DNA from: Minwuia sp.
GTDB taxonomy: Bacteria; Pseudomonadota; Alphaproteobacteria; Minwuiales; Minwuiaceae
Direction of reading: 5' to 3'
Length of the DNA: 64,000 nucleotides
Assembly (NCBI GenBank): GCA_029210175.1
Contig: JARGPL010000035.1
Span: 1-64,000, forward strand
The notes under the pieces were generated by a model. That model was given only the letters and a program-made list of their open reading frames with translations. It was not told the DNA's origin and ran no database searches. Position numbers and translations under genes: made by a program. This document shows, in pieces, positions 4,122 to 24,174 of this stretch. Each line of letters begins with the position of its first letter. Positions within the stretch are counted from its first letter, which is position 1.

Positions 4122-4496
4122 ATGAAAGACGGCGAGAACCGCACCAGCAATGATACCACTTCACACGAGGCGCTGGATGCGGATCAGTCGCCGCTTGTGC
4201 CTGACATCCTACCCGACGCCGACTTGTTCGATGTTGCCGATTACGCAGACGACCTTGCTGAACTGGACATCTCCGAGGCGCAGGCCGCAGAGATTCTGGG
4301 CATCATCTGGCGGATGATGTCGGCCATGGTCGATCTGGGTCTGGGTGTCGATTCTATCCACAACTTGTTGCCCAGCCTTGCCGCAATTTCTGGGGGTATA
4401 GAACCGCACGATCTAGACTCGGAGATCGCCAGACTGGCGGACGAGTTCAGCCGTTCGGCAGAGGCGGGCAGTCAATCTGAAAAGGAGGAATCATGA
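4122..4496 (+). CDS. Small acidic protein encoded in operon with the serine recombinase
   Basis: A 124-residue, strongly acidic protein (pattern DILPDADLFDVADYADDLAELDISEAQAAEILGIIWRMMSAMVDLGLG). It is predicted to be mostly helical, with an amphipathic central segment but no clear membrane span. It is the first gene behind the LexA-box promoter, and its last codon overlaps the recombinase ATG by 4 nt (ATGA). I do not recognise the family. Genes placed like this can encode recombination directionality factors, antirepressors or DNA mimics; the acidity would suit a DNA mimic, but no motif supports any one role. Confidence 0.7.
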   Translation: MKDGENRTSNDTTSHEALDADQSPLVPDILPDADLFDVADYADDLAELDISEAQAAEILGIIWRMMSAMVDLGLGVDSIHNLLPSLAAISGGIEPHDLDSEIARLADEFSRSAEAGSQSEKEES

Positions 4497-6139
4497 CATC
4501 ATTACCCAGACGAATTGCGGTCACATACGGTCGCGTTTCCAGCAAAAAACAATCGAAAGAGCACGGTGGCCTCGGCTCACAAGAAACAAGGTGTCGGGAG
4601 TTCGCCCGCTACAAGGGCTACGAGGTCATCGCAACCTTTACCGACGATATGACAGGCAAGGAGAGCGAGCGCCCTGGAATGCGGGCGATGCTTTCATTTG
4701 TACGCGAGCATCGGGCCGAAATGCCTGTGGTGATCGTGGACGACATCTCAAGGCTTGCCCGTGGAATTACTGCTCACTGGCGGCTTCGCGCCGAAATCGG
4801 TGAAGCTGGCGGCGTCCTTGAGAGTCCGACCAGTGAATTTGGAGATGATGCCGATAGCATCATGCGTGAAAATCTTATGGCGACTTTCGCGCAGCATTTT
4901 CGCGAAAAGAACGCGGAGCAAACTGTTAACCGCATGCGCGCCCGTGTCATGAACGGCTTTTGGCCGTTCCAACCGCCGATTGGTTACAAGCATGTGAAGG
5001 TTAGGGGACAGGGTAGTGTGCTCGAACCCAATGAGCCGCTGGCATCCATTATCCGCGAAGCGCTCGAAGGGTATGCATCAGGGCGCTTCGAGCTTCAGGT
5101 CGAAGTTCTGCGCTTCTTCGAGCGGCATCCTGAGTTCCCGCGCCAGAAGAATGGCAGAATCCCCAATCAACGGGTGAAGGATATTCTGAGCAATGTCGTC
5201 TACGCAGGGCATGTCCATGCAGCCTGCTGGGACGTGTCTGTGCGTAAAGGACTGCACACGCCGCTCATCAGCTTTGAGACCTATCAGCTCATCCAGCAGC
5301 GCCTGAACGGCAAACCTCGTGCGCCTGTGCGCAAGGATATCTCGGCGGACTTCCCGCTGCGCGGCAGCGTCGTCTGCGGCGATTGTGAAACGCTCCTCAC
5401 GGCCTGTTGGTCGAAAGGGCGCAACGGCAAACGGCATCCCTATTATCTTTGCCCGAAGAAGGGCTGTGATAGCTATGGCAAGTCGATCCGTCGTGCCGTG
5501 ATCGAAGGACAGTTTGAAGGCTTGCTGGAAACGATGCGGCCTGCCGAAGGTCTTCATCGCATCGCCTGCAAGATGTTCCGTAAGCTCTGGGATCACCGTA
5601 TTCAGTCCGAGACAGGACGCGGGGATGCGCTCAAGCAGGAGATCAAAGCTGTGGAGAAGAAGACGGATCAGCTTCTGGATCGGATCGTGGAAACCGAAAC
5701 GCCAAGCGTGATTCAGGCGCTGGAGCGCAAAATCGGAGAAGCCGAAACACGGAAGCTGGAACTACTGGATCAACTCGAAAATGCGAAGCCCGAAACCAGA
5801 GACTTCGATGCGGCACTTAGAACCGCTTTGGCATTCCTCGGAAACCCGCAGAAACTCTGGGCTTCGGAGCGTATCGACCATCGCAAGGCAGTCATCAAAC
5901 TCTGCTTTGCCGACCGTCTTCAATATGTGCGAAATGAGGGGTTTAGAACCGCTAATCTGACCTTACCTTTCAAGGCCTTAGCGGGTTTCTGTTCCCCAAA
6001 AAAGGAAGTGGCGCACCCGAGAGGATTCGAACCTCTGGCCTCCGCCTTCGGAGGGCGGCGCTCTATCCAGCTGAGCTACGGGTGCATACCGTTCGCGAGA
6101 TGCTTACGCCATGCTTACGCGAGATTTTCGTCGGTTTGA
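4493..6139 (+). CDS. Large serine recombinase (site-specific integrase)
   Basis: A 548-residue large serine recombinase, expected to integrate and excise the element. The N-terminal resolvase domain has the catalytic serine in YGRVSS (Y12, R14, S16) and a downstream SRLARG arginine motif. A 'recombinase' domain follows (about 165-260). A zinc ribbon has Cys pairs near 294/297 and 319/324, and a coiled-coil lies at about 375-440. The ATG overlaps the previous gene by 4 nt. The frame does not stop before the tRNA-Arg: it crosses the whole tRNA antisense (HPRGFEPLASAFGGRRSIQLSYGC) and ends at 6139. The last 45 or so residues are therefore set by the attachment site and its chromosomal flank, not by a conserved domain. 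Confidence 0.9.
   Translation: MTSLPRRIAVTYGRVSSKKQSKEHGGLGSQETRCREFARYKGYEVIATFTDDMTGKESERPGMRAMLSFVREHRAEMPVVIVDDISRLARGITAHWRLRAEIGEAGGVLESPTSEFGDDADSIMRENLMATFAQHFREKNAEQTVNRMRARVMNGFWPFQPPIGYKHVKVRGQGSVLEPNEPLASIIREALEGYASGRFELQVEVLRFFERHPEFPRQKNGRIPNQRVKDILSNVVYAGHVHAACWDVSVRKGLHTPLISFETYQLIQQRLNGKPRAPVRKDISADFPLRGSVVCGDCETLLTACWSKGRNGKRHPYYLCPKKGCDSYGKSIRRAVIEGQFEGLLETMRPAEGLHRIACKMFRKLWDHRIQSETGRGDALKQEIKAVEKKTDQLLDRIVETETPSVIQALERKIGEAETRKLELLDQLENAKPETRDFDAALRTALAFLGNPQKLWASERIDHRKAVIKLCFADRLQYVRNEGFRTANLTLPFKALAGFCSPKKEVAHPRGFEPLASAFGGRRSIQLSYGCIPFARCLRHAYARFSSV
6009..6085 (-). tRNA. tRNA-Arg (anticodon CCG)
   Basis: A complete 77-nt cloverleaf on the minus strand with encoded CCA. 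Acceptor stem GCACCCG/CGGGTGC, D-arm GCTC...GAGC, anticodon stem CCGCC/GGCGG with loop CTCCGAA giving anticodon CCG (decodes CGG, Arg), T-loop GTTCGAATC. Its 3' end abuts the integrative element, so it is the likely integration target, with the gene kept whole by the element. The serine recombinase frame passes through it on the opposite strand. Confidence 0.95.
6041..6081. repeat. 41-bp direct repeat, copy 1 (inside tRNA-Arg)
   Basis: Covers the anticodon arm, D-arm and part of the acceptor stem of tRNA-Arg. It is repeated at 6220-6260 in the same orientation with one mismatch (G at 6057 versus A at 6236). It is a possible attachment-site core or the footprint of an earlier integration. Confidence 0.8.
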
Positions 6140-19034: not shown

Positions 19035-19526
19035 TCATTCAGGCGCTGACGTTGCCAGTTCCACGGGCACGCCCGGTTCATGCTTGCTTTCGCGGATGGC
19101 GAGGGACGTCTTCACGTTGGCGACGTTCGCGGCGGCCGTGAGCTGTTCCGTCAGGAAGTGCTGATAGGCATCCCAGTCCTTGGCGACCACCTTCAGCAGG
19201 AAATCGATCTCGCCTGCCAGCATGTGGCATTCGCGTACCTGCGGCCAGCTGCGGACCTTTTCCTCAAATGCCTTCAGGTCAGTCTCGGCCTGGCTGTCGA
19301 GGCCGACCATGGCGAAGACCGTGACCCCGAAGCCGAGATGTTCGGGTGTCAGGTCGGCGTGATAGCCGCGAATGTAGCCTGCTTCTTCCAGCGCCCTGAC
19401 CCTGCGCAGGCAGGGGGGGGCCGAGATGCCGACACGACGGGCGAGCTCGACATTCGTCATGCGACCGTCGCCCTGCAGGTCTGCAAGGATCTTGCGGTCG
19501 ATCTCGTCGAGTTTCACGCGCTGCAT
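19035..19526 (-). CDS. Lrp/AsnC-family transcriptional regulator
   Basis: A 163-residue feast/famine regulator: N-terminal winged helix-turn-helix (LDEIDRKILADLQGDGRMTNVELARRVGISAPPCLRRVRALEEAGYIRGY, residues 5-55), then an effector-binding RAM domain (about 70-150) that drives octamer formation. It carries the usual PPCLRRV recognition helix. It probably senses an amino acid. It is transcribed in the same direction as the envelope operon ending at 19639 but separated by 112 bp containing a hairpin, so it is likely an independent gene. Confidence 0.94.
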   Translation of the reverse strand: MQRVKLDEIDRKILADLQGDGRMTNVELARRVGISAPPCLRRVRALEEAGYIRGYHADLTPEHLGFGVTVFAMVGLDSQAETDLKAFEEKVRSWPQVRECHMLAGEIDFLLKVVAKDWDAYQHFLTEQLTAAANVANVKTSLAIRESKHEPGVPVELATSAPE

Positions 19527-19638: not shown

Positions 19639-21198
19639 TCAAGGGGTGCGGCAACGCCTGGCAAAGTGACGGAGTATCCGCCCGAAGGCATGGATGCCCG
19701 CCCGGGCGTCTGCAGCCCATCTGGCCAGGCTTCCCCTGCGTGCCCGCATCATGACGGGATAGAGCGCAGTCGCGATCCAGACATTGATCAATCCGGCATA
19801 GGTCACGTCGAACAGGAAGTGGGATCCGTTGAACATCCGCATCAGACCGATGGCGAGCCCGAACCAGAGCGCCGCCTGCATCAGTCGCCGCCGACGACGG
19901 CCGGTGGCGAAGGCAATGGGGATGGCGATCATGGCGAAGGCGGCGCTGGCATCCCCGGAAACGAACGAGCAGTTGCGCGCGCAGCCATGGGTCGGGATCA
20001 GCGCAGGCTGATATTGCTGCTCCCCGCCGAACTCCACCGTATGCAGCGGGCGCGGCCTGTCCCACTGGTCCTTCAACAGGGCATTTGTCACCAGCCCGAC
20101 GCCCAGGCCGAAGACGGCGAGGATATAGATCAGCCGCCGGATGGAGGCGCGACGCTTCCACCGCGTGCGCAGACCATTTGCGGTCAGACCCAGCGCAATG
20201 ATGACCAGCAACCAGTAGAAGGTCGGGCGCAGGATGTCGTGAAACAGGTCACCGACCATGGAATCCGTGATCCAGAATTCGTTCCCCTGAAGGTGAAACA
20301 TGCCCGCCGCGATGCGGTCCAGCGGCGTGAACAGGGCCAGCGGCGCGATCAGGAAGGCGAGGACGATGCAGAGACGGCGGTATCGCGTCAGGCGGCTGCC
20401 GCCATCGATGGTCAGCAGCGGCCCGGCTGACGCGGGTCCGGCAGGTCGTGCCAGCCACCAACGCCCGACCGGCTGGCGCAGGACCTGCCCGTCAGCCGCG
20501 ACCTGAAACACCCAGTTGCGCCGGGCCAGGAATGACCGCAGCCACCAGGCGATGAAGCCACCCAGGGATGCGCCTGCAATGACGTCGGACAGGAAATGCG
20601 CGTTGACTGCGACCCTCGCCAGCCCGCCGATGATGGCGAAGGCGATCAGCCAGGCCCGGAAGCGCGGCAGCAGGAAGCACATGGCAATCGCGAAGGCAAA
20701 CAGCGTTGTCGTGTGGCCGGAGGGAAAGGACTGATGGCTCCAGTCGAACGCGAACATGGTCCATTCGGCGGTTTCGCCCTCTGCCATGTAGCGGGGGCGG
20801 GCGCGCCCGAAGAAGATCTTGAATATGTTGGTCAGAATGCCGGAGATGGCGATGGAGGCGACGACGTAGCCCGCCGCGCCTGCGATCCAGCCATAAAGCG
20901 CCCTGCGCGACTGTCTGTCATTTCCGGCCCGCAGGGCCAGGGCCGCGAACACCACGCATCCGCCGGTAACCAGGCCCCACTTGCTGTTACCCACGTCCCC
21001 CAGCACGCGCAGGGCTTCGATCATGCCGCCGTCGATGGCGACCACATGATCACGGATCCAGACGTCCAGGCCATAGGACCCGACAACCGCGAAGGTCAGG
21101 ATCAGTTCATAGAGCGCGATCTGCCAGGGCAGCAGGTAACGCCCGTCTGATCGGTCACGGGTTGCGTCCCCCATCTTCAGCAGTCCATTGCCGCTCAT
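19639..21198 (-). CDS. Tandem PAP2 membrane phosphatase (two fused PAP2 domains)
   Basis: A 519-residue multi-spanning protein with two complete PAP2 (phosphatidic acid phosphatase type 2) units. Unit 1 has K127-x6-RP135, PSGH (159-162), and R195-x5-H201-x3-D205, all canonical. Unit 2 has K376-x6-RP384 and R454-x5-H460-x3-D464, but its middle motif reads VSGD (413-416), so the acid-base His is replaced by Asp. A soluble linker with an RxxVGRWW segment (about 230-270) separates the units. Single PAP2 proteins include the lipid A phosphatases LpxE and LpxF and undecaprenyl-pyrophosphatases; a fused pair is unusual. It overlaps the ArnT-like gene by 4 nt, pointing to lipid A or lipid-carrier dephosphorylation at the periplasmic face. 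Confidence 0.9.
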   Translation of the reverse strand: MSGNGLLKMGDATRDRSDGRYLLPWQIALYELILTFAVVGSYGLDVWIRDHVVAIDGGMIEALRVLGDVGNSKWGLVTGGCVVFAALALRAGNDRQSRRALYGWIAGAAGYVVASIAISGILTNIFKIFFGRARPRYMAEGETAEWTMFAFDWSHQSFPSGHTTTLFAFAIAMCFLLPRFRAWLIAFAIIGGLARVAVNAHFLSDVIAGASLGGFIAWWLRSFLARRNWVFQVAADGQVLRQPVGRWWLARPAGPASAGPLLTIDGGSRLTRYRRLCIVLAFLIAPLALFTPLDRIAAGMFHLQGNEFWITDSMVGDLFHDILRPTFYWLLVIIALGLTANGLRTRWKRRASIRRLIYILAVFGLGVGLVTNALLKDQWDRPRPLHTVEFGGEQQYQPALIPTHGCARNCSFVSGDASAAFAMIAIPIAFATGRRRRRLMQAALWFGLAIGLMRMFNGSHFLFDVTYAGLINVWIATALYPVMMRARRGSLARWAADARAGIHAFGRILRHFARRCRTP

Positions 21199-22877
21199 TT
21201 GCCGTCGCCTGACAGTCTGTAGAGGGTGATTGTCACGTTCTGTCCTCTGGCATAGTTGAAGCCCTGAACCTCATCCAGTTTCTCGACTTCTGCACCGCGC
21301 GCGGCGAGATGGTCAAGGAAATCGGCTTGCAGCCGCTGTTCGACAGCCGCGATCTGGCAGGGCGTGCGGTCGAGCAATTTGTCAGCTGCACCAGTGGCAT
21401 GGGTCAGGAATGTATCTGTTGCGGTCAGGAACACCAGACTGGGTTCGTTGAAACCGGCACTGATCAGCCTTGGTGCAGGGCAGGGGGCTGCCATCTGCTG
21501 GAAAGCTGCTGCCAGGCGGGGGGAGACGAATGCCGGCTCCAGCCCCGGCAGGAACCGCCCGAAGACCACGCCAGAGAACAGCAGGGCCGCAACCAGCACT
21601 GCCGTCAGCTGCGCCCCGCTGCGACGGACACCGTGGATGAAACCGAGGCCGAACCAGAGCGCGGGCAAAAGCAGCACACCAGCGAAATGCCAGACGCTCA
21701 GGTCAACACCTGCGCCCTGGGCAACAAAGGGCATCGCACTTGCCAGCGCCAGGGTCACGAGACCCCAGAGCAGCATGATGATGATGCGCCACCAGCGCGG
21801 TGCCGCTGCATCCACATCGTGCAGCGCCGCGACAGCCAGGATCGCCAGCGCCGGGTAGGCTGGCAGCACGTAATGCGCCAGCTTCGTCGGCGTCAGGGCG
21901 AAGATGATCCAGGTAAACAGTGCCCAGCCGAGCAGCAGCGTGACCTCCGAACGGCGGCGGCTGCGCCAGATCCAGGGCAGGGCCAGCAACCCGAGCAGGG
22001 AGAACGGCCAGAATGTCACATTGGCCAGCGCCAGATAGAGACCCGGCGGTGCGCCATGGCTTTCCTGACCGCTGGACACCTTCGCGATCATGTCCTTGCC
22101 GACCGACTCGGCCAGGAAACCGCCATCACTGATGATGATGATGGCCACGTACCAGGGCAGTGCGACGATCAGAAACAGCGGGATGCCGGTCAGTGGCTTC
22201 AGGTGCCGAACCCAGCCGAAGCCGCGCGAGAGCCACCCCTGCGCCAGCACCAGCCCGATGATCGGCAGGAACAGGATCGGACCCTTGATCATGAAACCAA
22301 CCCCGGCCATGGCCCAGAAACCGTGTGCCGCCAGCGCATTGCCTTCGGGTTTTCCGGTTCCGGATTCCCTGTATCGGCGCAGGACGATCAGCATGCAGGC
22401 CAGTGCAGCCATGATGGCGGCCAGCAGCATTGCGTCCGACTTGCCGGTCCGCGCCTCCACATTCAGCAGGATGGAACTGGCCATGACGACACCGGCGCCG
22501 AAACCCACACCGCCACTGAACAGCAGGCCGCCGATGAAGGCAGTCAGCAGGACGCTCGCGACCGCCGCGCCAAGGCTTGGCAGGCGATAGACCCAGATCC
22601 GGTCGTCGATACCGGTCAGGTGGACGGCGGCGGCCTGAAACCAGTAGATCCCGGCGGGTTTCTTGTGGCGCGGTTCATGCTGGAAGCGGATGTCGATGTA
22701 ATCGCCGGTCTCCACCATCTGCTTCGACGCCTGCGCGAAGCGGCTCTCGTCACGGTCGATGGGGGGCAGGCTGGTGAAGCCCGGCAGGAAGAATGCCAGT
22801 GCGATGACGGTCAGCAGGCCATAACGCAGCCCGGCGGACCATTCACCGATCCGGTCGAGCAGACTCTGTGGGCTCAT
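21195..22877 (-). CDS. ArnT-like GT83/GT39 lipid-linked-sugar glycosyltransferase
   Basis: A 560-residue integral membrane glycosyltransferase of the GT-C fold (10 or more helices). The first periplasmic loop holds the catalytic acidic motif in LPPIDRDESRFAQASKQMVETGDYIDIRF (about residues 37-65), as in ArnT and the Rhizobium Rgt enzymes, which move aminoarabinose or galacturonate from a polyprenyl phosphate to lipid A or core. KKPAGIYWFQ is the conserved following segment. A smaller soluble periplasmic C-terminal part begins at about 460. It overlaps the LAB_N gene by 35 nt and the PAP2 gene by 4 nt. The donor sugar is unknown. Confidence 0.9.
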   Translation of the reverse strand: MSPQSLLDRIGEWSAGLRYGLLTVIALAFFLPGFTSLPPIDRDESRFAQASKQMVETGDYIDIRFQHEPRHKKPAGIYWFQAAAVHLTGIDDRIWVYRLPSLGAAVASVLLTAFIGGLLFSGGVGFGAGVVMASSILLNVEARTGKSDAMLLAAIMAALACMLIVLRRYRESGTGKPEGNALAAHGFWAMAGVGFMIKGPILFLPIIGLVLAQGWLSRGFGWVRHLKPLTGIPLFLIVALPWYVAIIIISDGGFLAESVGKDMIAKVSSGQESHGAPPGLYLALANVTFWPFSLLGLLALPWIWRSRRRSEVTLLLGWALFTWIIFALTPTKLAHYVLPAYPALAILAVAALHDVDAAAPRWWRIIIMLLWGLVTLALASAMPFVAQGAGVDLSVWHFAGVLLLPALWFGLGFIHGVRRSGAQLTAVLVAALLFSGVVFGRFLPGLEPAFVSPRLAAAFQQMAAPCPAPRLISAGFNEPSLVFLTATDTFLTHATGAADKLLDRTPCQIAAVEQRLQADFLDHLAARGAEVEKLDEVQGFNYARGQNVTITLYRLSGDGK

Positions 22878-23211
22878 GCGATCCGTCTCCGCTGGGCTGA
22901 AGTGCCGCCGCCTGTCGCTTCTCGCGCCGGATGAAGAAGAGGTTTCGACCGTAGATGATGATGCCGGTGGTCTGGCCCAGCATGATCACGGGGTCTTCCC
23001 GCAGGACGCCATAGGTGAACATCAGGATGCCGCCGGTGATGGAAAAGTACCAGAACGCCTCCGGCACCACCGACTTTCGCGCGCGCTCCGTCATGATCCA
23101 TTGCACCAGGAAGCGCATGAAGAACATGCTCTGTGCAAACAGCCCGAAGGTGAACAGCCAGACCTCGATACCGGTCATGCGGTCCCACCAGTTGGCGACC
23201 AGTTCCATCAT
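22843..23211 (-). CDS. LAB_N (lipid A biosynthesis N-terminal) domain membrane protein
   Basis: A 122-residue protein with three hydrophobic helices matching the LAB_N domain (WLFTFGLFAQSMFFMRFLVQWIMTERARKSVVPEAFWYFSITGGILMFTYGVLREDPVIMLGQTTGIIIYGRNLFFI). The same domain occurs fused to some lipid-A-disaccharide synthases and alone beside GT2/GT83 genes. It resembles small multidrug-resistance-type proteins and may flip a lipid-linked sugar, but that role is inferred. It overlaps the GT2 gene by 4 nt and the ArnT-like gene by 35 nt. Confidence 0.88.
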   Translation of the reverse strand: MMELVANWWDRMTGIEVWLFTFGLFAQSMFFMRFLVQWIMTERARKSVVPEAFWYFSITGGILMFTYGVLREDPVIMLGQTTGIIIYGRNLFFIRREKRQAAALQPSGDGSHEPTESARPDR

Positions 23212-23954
23212 GACTTTTCCTGTTCATTGCGGAGAACTTCGGTCGGTCCCGGGTTGCGGGCGCGATAGCGCAGCCAGACAAAGCCCGCAAGATCGATCAG
23301 ACCGTCGAGTGCGCGCTTCAGGTTGGTGTATTTCGACTGTCCGGCAGCACGGTCGCGGTCCCCGATTTCCACGGATGCAACGTCATGGCCGTAGAGGCGG
23401 AACAGCGCGGGCATGAAGCGATGCATGGTGGCGAAGAACGGCAGTTGCAGATAGTCGGCACGGCGGAACACCTTCAGCCCGCACCCTGAATCAGGGCAGT
23501 CATCGCGCAGCACCGCCTGGCGGATCGTGTTGGCGGCGCGGGAGGCGAAGCGGCGGCTGCCCGTGGCCTTGCGACCGACCCGCCAGCCATTCACCAGTCC
23601 GACAGCCGGCTGGTCAGCGTCCAGCAGCCGGGCAATCAGGTTCGGGATATCAGGCGGCGGGTTCTGTCCGTCGCCATCCAGCGTGATGATGATGTCAGCG
23701 TCGGTTGCCGCCCGGACACCGCTGCGGACGGCGGCGCTCTGCCCCGACCGGACAGCGTGGCGCAGCACGCGCAGGCGCGGCACCGCGTCCATGGTCTGGC
23801 GCAGCTCTTGCGGTGTTGCATCGCCGGATCCATCATCCACCACGATGATCGTGAGGGACGCTGTTTCCTTCAGAACGTCGTCGATCTCCCGGACGAGATG
23901 GCCGATGTTGCCAGCTTCATTCATTGCGGGGATCACGACCGCAAAGGTGGTCAT
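23208..23954 (-). CDS. GT2 polyprenyl-phosphate glycosyltransferase
   Basis: A 248-residue family 2 glycosyltransferase of the dolichol-phosphate mannosyltransferase/ArnC group. N-terminal VVIPAMNEAGNIGHLVREIDDVL, the nucleotide-sugar DxD region LDGDGQNPP (about 90-98), and the family segment GLKVFRRADYLQLPFFATMHRFMPAL are visible. DRAAGQSKY and a C-terminal amphipathic or short hydrophobic segment follow. It should transfer a sugar from a nucleotide donor to polyprenyl phosphate, making the substrate of the ArnT-like enzyme. The ATG at 23954 opens the four-gene operon; an upstream extension to 23996 lacks homology. Confidence 0.92.
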   Translation of the reverse strand: MTTFAVVIPAMNEAGNIGHLVREIDDVLKETASLTIIVVDDGSGDATPQELRQTMDAVPRLRVLRHAVRSGQSAAVRSGVRAATDADIIITLDGDGQNPPPDIPNLIARLLDADQPAVGLVNGWRVGRKATGSRRFASRAANTIRQAVLRDDCPDSGCGLKVFRRADYLQLPFFATMHRFMPALFRLYGHDVASVEIGDRDRAAGQSKYTNLKRALDGLIDLAGFVWLRYRARNPGPTEVLRNEQEKS

Positions 23955-24174
23955 GGGTTGCGGGTCCAGAGCGGTTGCCAGAGTGACTGCCCACACCCGG
24001 ACGGATGTGGCGGGCGATCACTGCCGGGACAAAGCGCGTTTCTTGGCAGATTTCGCCGCGTCCGTCCATTGCTTGCACCGGACGCATGCGTGCGGCGCGC
24101 CGCCGCGCCAACTGTTTCCAACACAGCCGCATCGCGCTAGATCAGAGGTATAAATCTGCAAGGAGCACCAGAAC

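Follow-up and report, generated by a model that had tools for sequence, protein, structure and literature searches.

An operon of the alphaproteobacterium Minwuia sp. ends in a gene that encodes two PAP2 phosphatase units in a single polypeptide, preceded by genes for sugar transfer. This arrangement raises the question of which substrates the two units act on, and whether their fusion is a peculiarity of this genome. The operon lies in the window, that is, the whole stretch of 64,000 nucleotides that was analyzed (contig JARGPL010000035.1, assembly GCA_029210175.1). With a probability of roughly two in three, we propose that the operon mediates the dephosphorylation and glycosylation of lipid A, with two phosphatases in one polypeptide and the sugar at C-1.

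The operon occupies positions 19639-23954 on the minus strand and consists of four overlapping genes in the order GT2, LAB_N, GT-C, and double PAP2, with successive overlaps of 4, 35, and 4 nt. This gene set and these overlaps had been described in a first-pass annotation and were confirmed by the coordinates and by Pfam:

23208..23954, minus strand: GT2 glycosyltransferase, RgtE/ArnC-like (Pfam PF00535 Glycos_transf_2, 79 bits)
22843..23211, minus strand: LAB_N small membrane protein (Pfam PF07578, 107 bits)
21195..22877, minus strand: GT-C glycosyltransferase of the RgtF/ArnT kind, called GTC1 (PMT_2, 36 bits)
19639..21198, minus strand: double PAP2 protein of 519 aa (Pfam PAP2, 148 bits, two stretches)

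The GT2 gene was taken to start with the ATG at 23954; an alternative upstream GTG would place the start at 23996. The GT2 is a predicted polyprenyl-phosphate sugar synthase, and its sugar is probably galacturonate (GalA). Its best PDB matches were the ArnC structures 9BHC/8VXH (E ~5e-19). The LAB_N protein showed weak PDB matches to SemiSWEET sugar transporters (4X5M, E 0.001; 5UHQ, E 0.006; 4QNC, E 0.007), and because of these matches it is regarded as a candidate flippase for the lipid-linked sugar; its score with Pfam MtN3_slv was under the cut-off. GTC1 matched ArnT 5EZM (E 9e-11) as well as the NCBIfam ArnT model NF009784, the latter with 67.3 bits and thus below the equivalog cut-off of 567 bits, and it was 45.7% identical to the GT39 protein of Azospirillum lipoferum in the matched part. 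In the window and in its relatives, the enzyme has the traits by which RgtF is recognized: it is a GT-C protein, and its gene clusters with those of a GT2 of the RgtE type and a phosphatase of the LpxE type. GTC1 is predicted to place the sugar on C-1 of lipid A.

The double PAP2 gene is followed, on the same strand, by a gene for an Lrp/AsnC-type regulator (19035-19526). Close homologues of this regulator (235-290 bits) were found within about 5 kb of phosphatase or GT-C genes at loci of other families, where the fusions differ (L176, L180-L184, L186), and shared regulation of these loci is possible.

PF01569 matched the double PAP2 protein twice, with 100.8 and 62.9 bits (cut-off 27.2). Its units and motifs are as follows:

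20464..21198, minus strand: unit 1, LpxE-like, aa 1-245 (PDB match, fold, and side of the tree)
20404..20463, minus strand: linker, aa 246-265, in an arginine-rich loop (low model confidence)
19639..20403, minus strand: unit 2, LpxF-like, aa 266-519 and stop codon (NCBIfam LpxF, U2 clade, and model)
20794..20820, minus strand: KX6RP motif of unit 1, KIFFGRARP, aa 127-135
20713..20724, minus strand: PSGH motif of unit 1, aa 159-162
20584..20616, minus strand: RX5HX3D motif of unit 1, RVAVNAHFLSD, aa 195-205
20047..20073, minus strand: KX6RP motif of unit 2, KDQWDRPRP, aa 376-384
19951..19962, minus strand: VSGD of unit 2 in place of PSGH, aa 413-416
19807..19839, minus strand: RX5HX3D motif of unit 2, RMFNGSHFLFD, aa 454-464

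Unit 1 had been credited with every canonical motif. KX6RP, PSGH, and RX5HX3D are indeed present, but the Ser of SRX5HX3D is replaced by Ala. The catalytic residues Lys, Arg, Arg, His, and Asp were invariant in both units of 31 fused proteins.

Both units adopt the PAP2 fold of the integral membrane branch, with Z scores of 18.4 (unit 1) and 14.8 (unit 2) against 5JKI. The top PDB sequence match of unit 1 was LpxE 6EBU, with which its model aligned at Z 15.9. Unit 2, modelled alone with a mean pLDDT of 81.3, reached Z 13.8 against the same structure. With the NCBIfam LpxF model NF045633, unit 2 scored 99.5 bits, the match spanning almost the entire model, and the next family reached 31.5 bits. 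The score lies below the equivalog cut-off of 400 bits; two Rhizobium members of the clade scored 73 and 89. Unit 1 reached 15.2 bits with the NCBIfam LpxE model NF007159 (equivalog cut-off 177) and did slightly better on undecaprenyl-diphosphatase models (29 bits for SepP versus 15 for LpxE). However, an annotated lpxE gene of Rhizobium also scored just 17.6 bits with NF007159, so that alphaproteobacterial LpxE lies outside the coverage of this model. As neither unit reaches its curated equivalog cut-off, they are called LpxE-like and LpxF-like here; unit 1 would be the 1-phosphatase and unit 2 the 4'-phosphatase.

Hydropathy and the model are consistent with each unit having six membrane helices. 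Arginine is abundant in the linker and at the C terminus, and the loop of aa 225-275 contains 9 K/R versus 2 D/E. The linker region (aa 231-280) had pLDDT values of 29-52; the full-length model was of moderate quality (pLDDT 70.5, pTM 0.50), too low for conclusions on the packing of the units. We infer that both active sites would face the periplasm and that the linker would be cytoplasmic, an arrangement that would make fusion possible in either order.

Is the fusion confined to this genome? A search for the double PAP2 architecture across genomes, which the first-pass annotation had suggested, revealed that it recurs in many of them. Within the genus, five of seven genomes, the one of the window included, contain both units in one frame, and the four relatives are 82-87% identical. 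In the remaining two (G004 and G006), the units are encoded by separate genes with an overlap of a few bases; their order and the three partners upstream are unchanged. The nearest named relatives were Minwuia genomes and 'Kordiimonadales bacterium IMCC3096'. A contig scan with one genome per species found the fused frame in 78 of the 80 best loci, comprising 4 from Minwuia and 74 of SAR11 type with the same order of units as in Minwuia; this label was given where the title or the sequence pointed to SAR11 or to something SAR11-like. Such retention of the frame, in the genus and in SAR11, is more than chance would give. The pattern used, NCSF[VT][SG]GD[AV], required the Asp of unit 2, so that the invariance of this residue in SAR11 is partly due to selection; a profile search, unlike the pattern scan, recovered His and Glu variants of unit 2. 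Among 387 alphaproteobacterial genomes, the order U1-U2 was present in 8 (Minwuia and two SAR11-type families), and the reverse order U2-U1, again in one frame, in 11 (families f8, f36, f61, and f107). Across 397 genomes of the phylum, no fusion outside the Alphaproteobacteria was seen. A frame of 704 aa in one genome (G559) was considered as a fusion and rejected, since the ORF listing shows no such fusion. Beside the reverse-order fusion of one family, a gene for a protein that by eye resembles ELM1 was noticed in three genomes (L180:3540-4505, L181:3169-4134, L184:5446-6405).

A tree built from 106 PAP2 units placed all LpxF-like units in a single clade (SH-aLRT 98); each fusion in it combined one unit from each side, U1 and U2. 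The tree contained no biochemically tested LpxE or LpxF as an anchor. The U1 and U2 labels are based on tree and motif, as iterated U1 and U2 HMMs merged into one PAP2 model. One PAP2 protein of the LpxF-like clade lacks the NCSF motif; its gene lies on a plasmid of Martelella mediterranea, where GT2 and GT39 genes come after it (L142:2878-6624). The objection that the fusion might be found only here, as a recent tandem duplication, failed on both counts: the fusion recurs widely, and the two Minwuia units are 29% identical in a local stretch and lie in two old clades. By this evidence, they are old paralogue families. A single clade of the Minwuia and SAR11 fusions was rejected by the AU test (p 3.2e-4 for U1, 4.7e-5 for U2), and these fusions are thus independent. 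A single origin of all reverse-order fusions was not rejected on the U1 tree (p 0.244). Counting the reverse order in addition, there were therefore at least three fusion events. Fusion in both orders from separate genes is expected if two enzymes work together, and its repetition is strong 'Rosetta Stone' evidence that 1- and 4'-phosphatases cooperate.

If U1 and U2 act at different ends of lipid A, separate GT-C partners are expected for them. Two types of transferase were distinguished, GTC1, the RgtF-like type of the window, and GTC2, which belongs to PMT_2 and carries the motifs DEAQYW and GY(F/Y)SKPP. Their presence within 600 bp of unfused phosphatase genes was determined in the 387 genomes. 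Of 43 unfused U1 genes, 25 were near GTC1 and 2 near GTC2, whereas for 53 unfused U2 genes the respective numbers were 0 and 13. This segregation (25:2 versus 0:13) has a Fisher p of 9e-9, a value that ignores the relatedness of the genomes. Both exceptional U1 genes near GTC2 belong to operons of the order GTC1-U1-GTC2-U2 (L188:2524-7327, L189:2051-6923). In SAR11, short-type fusions had GTC2 as the next gene in 37 of 40 cases, and 31 of 32 long-type fusions shared 4 nt with the gene upstream. This upstream gene was GTC1 in three loci and a diverged full-length relative of GTC1 in three others that were compared. At several long-type loci (L033:7684-9162, L074:4295-5785, and others), it encodes a membrane protein of 492-496 aa that has no Pfam match and overlaps the fusion by 4 nt; this protein can be aligned from end to end with the GTC1 family (hhalign probability 96.8), with most motifs lost. 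The partner pattern would fit one phosphatase-transferase pair per end of lipid A.

Downstream of the SAR11 fusion at locus L033, on the same strand, lie two genes resembling NAD-dependent epimerases (4170-6120), one of which looks by eye like a UDP-glucuronate decarboxylase. The pair did not appear at the other SAR11 loci that were listed, and it may hint at the sugar used at L033.

The genome of the window is 99.99% complete. In it, the PF01569 search found the double PAP2 gene as the only PAP2 gene, GTC1 was the only PMT_2 match, and neither PF13231 nor the GTC2 profile detected a second GT-C. The genome carries LpxK, BacA, and genes of the UDP-sugar dehydrogenase family; an epimerase specific for UDP-GalA was not found. 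The presence of LpxK, which was also detected in 14 of 14 further genomes with fusions or paired genes, means that the 4'-phosphate is made in Minwuia, and the presence of BacA means that carrier recycling has an enzyme of its own.

Taken together, these features suggest the following pathway. At the cytoplasmic face, the GT2 would load the sugar, most likely GalA from UDP-GalA, onto polyprenyl phosphate, and the SemiSWEET-like LAB_N protein would flip the lipid-linked sugar. At the periplasmic face, the LpxE-like unit 1 would remove the 1-phosphate from lipid A, and the RgtF-like GT-C would attach the sugar to the C-1 hydroxyl thus exposed. The LpxF-like unit 2, tethered to unit 1 by the cytoplasmic linker, would take off the 4'-phosphate. 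A single GT-C fits a sugar at one end only, and, because Minwuia lacks a second GT-C of the kind associated with LpxF-like genes elsewhere, its lipid A is predicted to be free of phosphate, with a sugar at C-1 and a bare 4' position.

The first-pass annotation had already considered that the fusion dephosphorylates both ends of lipid A, or one of them together with the lipid carrier after its release. The former proposal is retained, since the units belong to separate LpxE-like and LpxF-like families within a sugar-transfer operon. The latter finds no support: transfer of the ArnT type leaves the carrier as a monophosphate, so that no carrier phosphatase is needed, and BacA is at hand. The main line of that interpretation thus holds, but it was too narrow, as it missed the fusions in both orders, the spread in SAR11, the link to RgtE, RgtF, and LpxE, and the single GT-C.

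Carrier recycling might nevertheless account for the link to the glycosyltransferases if one or both units were general phosphatases, acting on undecaprenyl pyrophosphate or phosphatidylglycerol phosphate. The better match of unit 1 to SepP than to LpxE would agree with this, as would the fact that the double PAP2 gene is the sole PAP2 gene found in the genome, but BacA and the monophosphate form of the released carrier argue against it, among the models LpxF is by far the nearest to unit 2, and unfused U1 and U2 genes adjoin different GT-C types. Although known LpxE enzymes also act on C55-PP and PGP (PMC6581854), we consider general phosphatases unlikely. It is very unlikely that the assignment is swapped, with unit 1 acting at the 4' position and unit 2 at position 1. 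The regiospecificity of PAP2 enzymes is not readable from the sequence, and both units resemble the LpxE fold; however, unit 2 prefers the LpxF model, and U1-type genes accompany the RgtF-type GT-C, RgtF being known to act at C-1 after LpxE (PMC7795004).

The substitution of VSGD for PSGH, which puts an Asp in the place of the conserved His, could mean that unit 2 is a non-catalytic scaffold. This is barely credible, because tree and alignment revealed that the position is occupied by Asp, His, or Glu within the unit 2 clade, the remaining catalytic residues are invariant in the 31 fusions, and the LpxE of Aquifex aeolicus, which likewise carries Asp where PSGH has its His, has been crystallized and is active (PMC6581854). 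The sugar might be one other than GalA, for example, mannose, glucose, or aminoarabinose, an option that is compatible with the pathway proposed above. The top named models of the GT2 and the GT-C are the Ara4N enzymes ArnC and ArnT, and a 4'-mannose is known from a related bacterium (PMC7795004). GalA, on the other hand, is favored by the A. lipoferum cluster and by the precedent of rgtE-rgtF-lpxE, and the genome contains genes of the UDP-sugar dehydrogenase family; we regard a different sugar as possible but doubtful.

We give even odds to the wider claim that a fusion of LpxE and LpxF removing both lipid A phosphates arose at least three times in the Alphaproteobacteria, and that SAR11 would make phosphate-free, glycosylated lipid A; the glycosylation is proposed because the SAR11 fusion is flanked by GT-C genes. 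In SAR11, which are among the most abundant bacteria of the ocean, such a lipid A would possibly save phosphorus. If the claim is true, phosphate-free lipid A would be standard in SAR11 and in several further lineages of the Alphaproteobacteria, and this would have effects on membrane charge, divalent-cation bridging, interactions with phages and peptides, and the phosphorus economy of the ocean. The segregation of GT-C and phosphatase genes also gives testable roles to genes annotated just as 'PAP2 family' or 'glycosyltransferase family 39'. In the open-access literature, neither a description of an LpxE-LpxF fusion nor a report on the lipid A structure of SAR11 was found; subscription journals were mostly outside both searches. 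As far as searched, this is thus a recurrent fusion, with a function that would be known by analogy, that is undescribed as a fusion.

Among known systems, Rhizobium, Francisella, and Helicobacter encode LpxE and LpxF in two genes, whereas in Minwuia one polypeptide contains both units, each below the respective equivalog cut-off. The A. aeolicus LpxE (6EBU) resembles both Minwuia units in fold and unit 2 in its Asp, but it is a single unit with little sequence identity to them. On plasmid AZO_p5 of A. lipoferum 4B (NC_016624), a GT2-LAB_N-GT39 cluster has the same gene order as in Minwuia. The lipid A of this species carries alpha-GalA at C-1 (PMC7663294), and one of its genes has been listed with rgtF (PMC7795004). 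In contrast to Minwuia, where the double PAP2 gene overlaps the GT-C gene by 4 nt, no phosphatase gene follows GT39 in this cluster. A further parallel is the clustering of rgtE, rgtF, and lpxE, described for Mesorhizobium loti (PMC5644692) and, with reference to Brown et al. 2013, for M. loti and Oligotropha carboxidovorans (PMC5644692, PMC7663294). There, too, a polyprenyl-phosphate sugar synthase, a GT-C, and an LpxE-type phosphatase are grouped, and GalA replaces the C-1 phosphate. Minwuia differs in that a LAB_N gene is added and the LpxE-like unit is fused to an LpxF-like unit. By sequence and analogy, the first three genes and unit 1 match this route for the addition of galacturonate to C-1 of lipid A.
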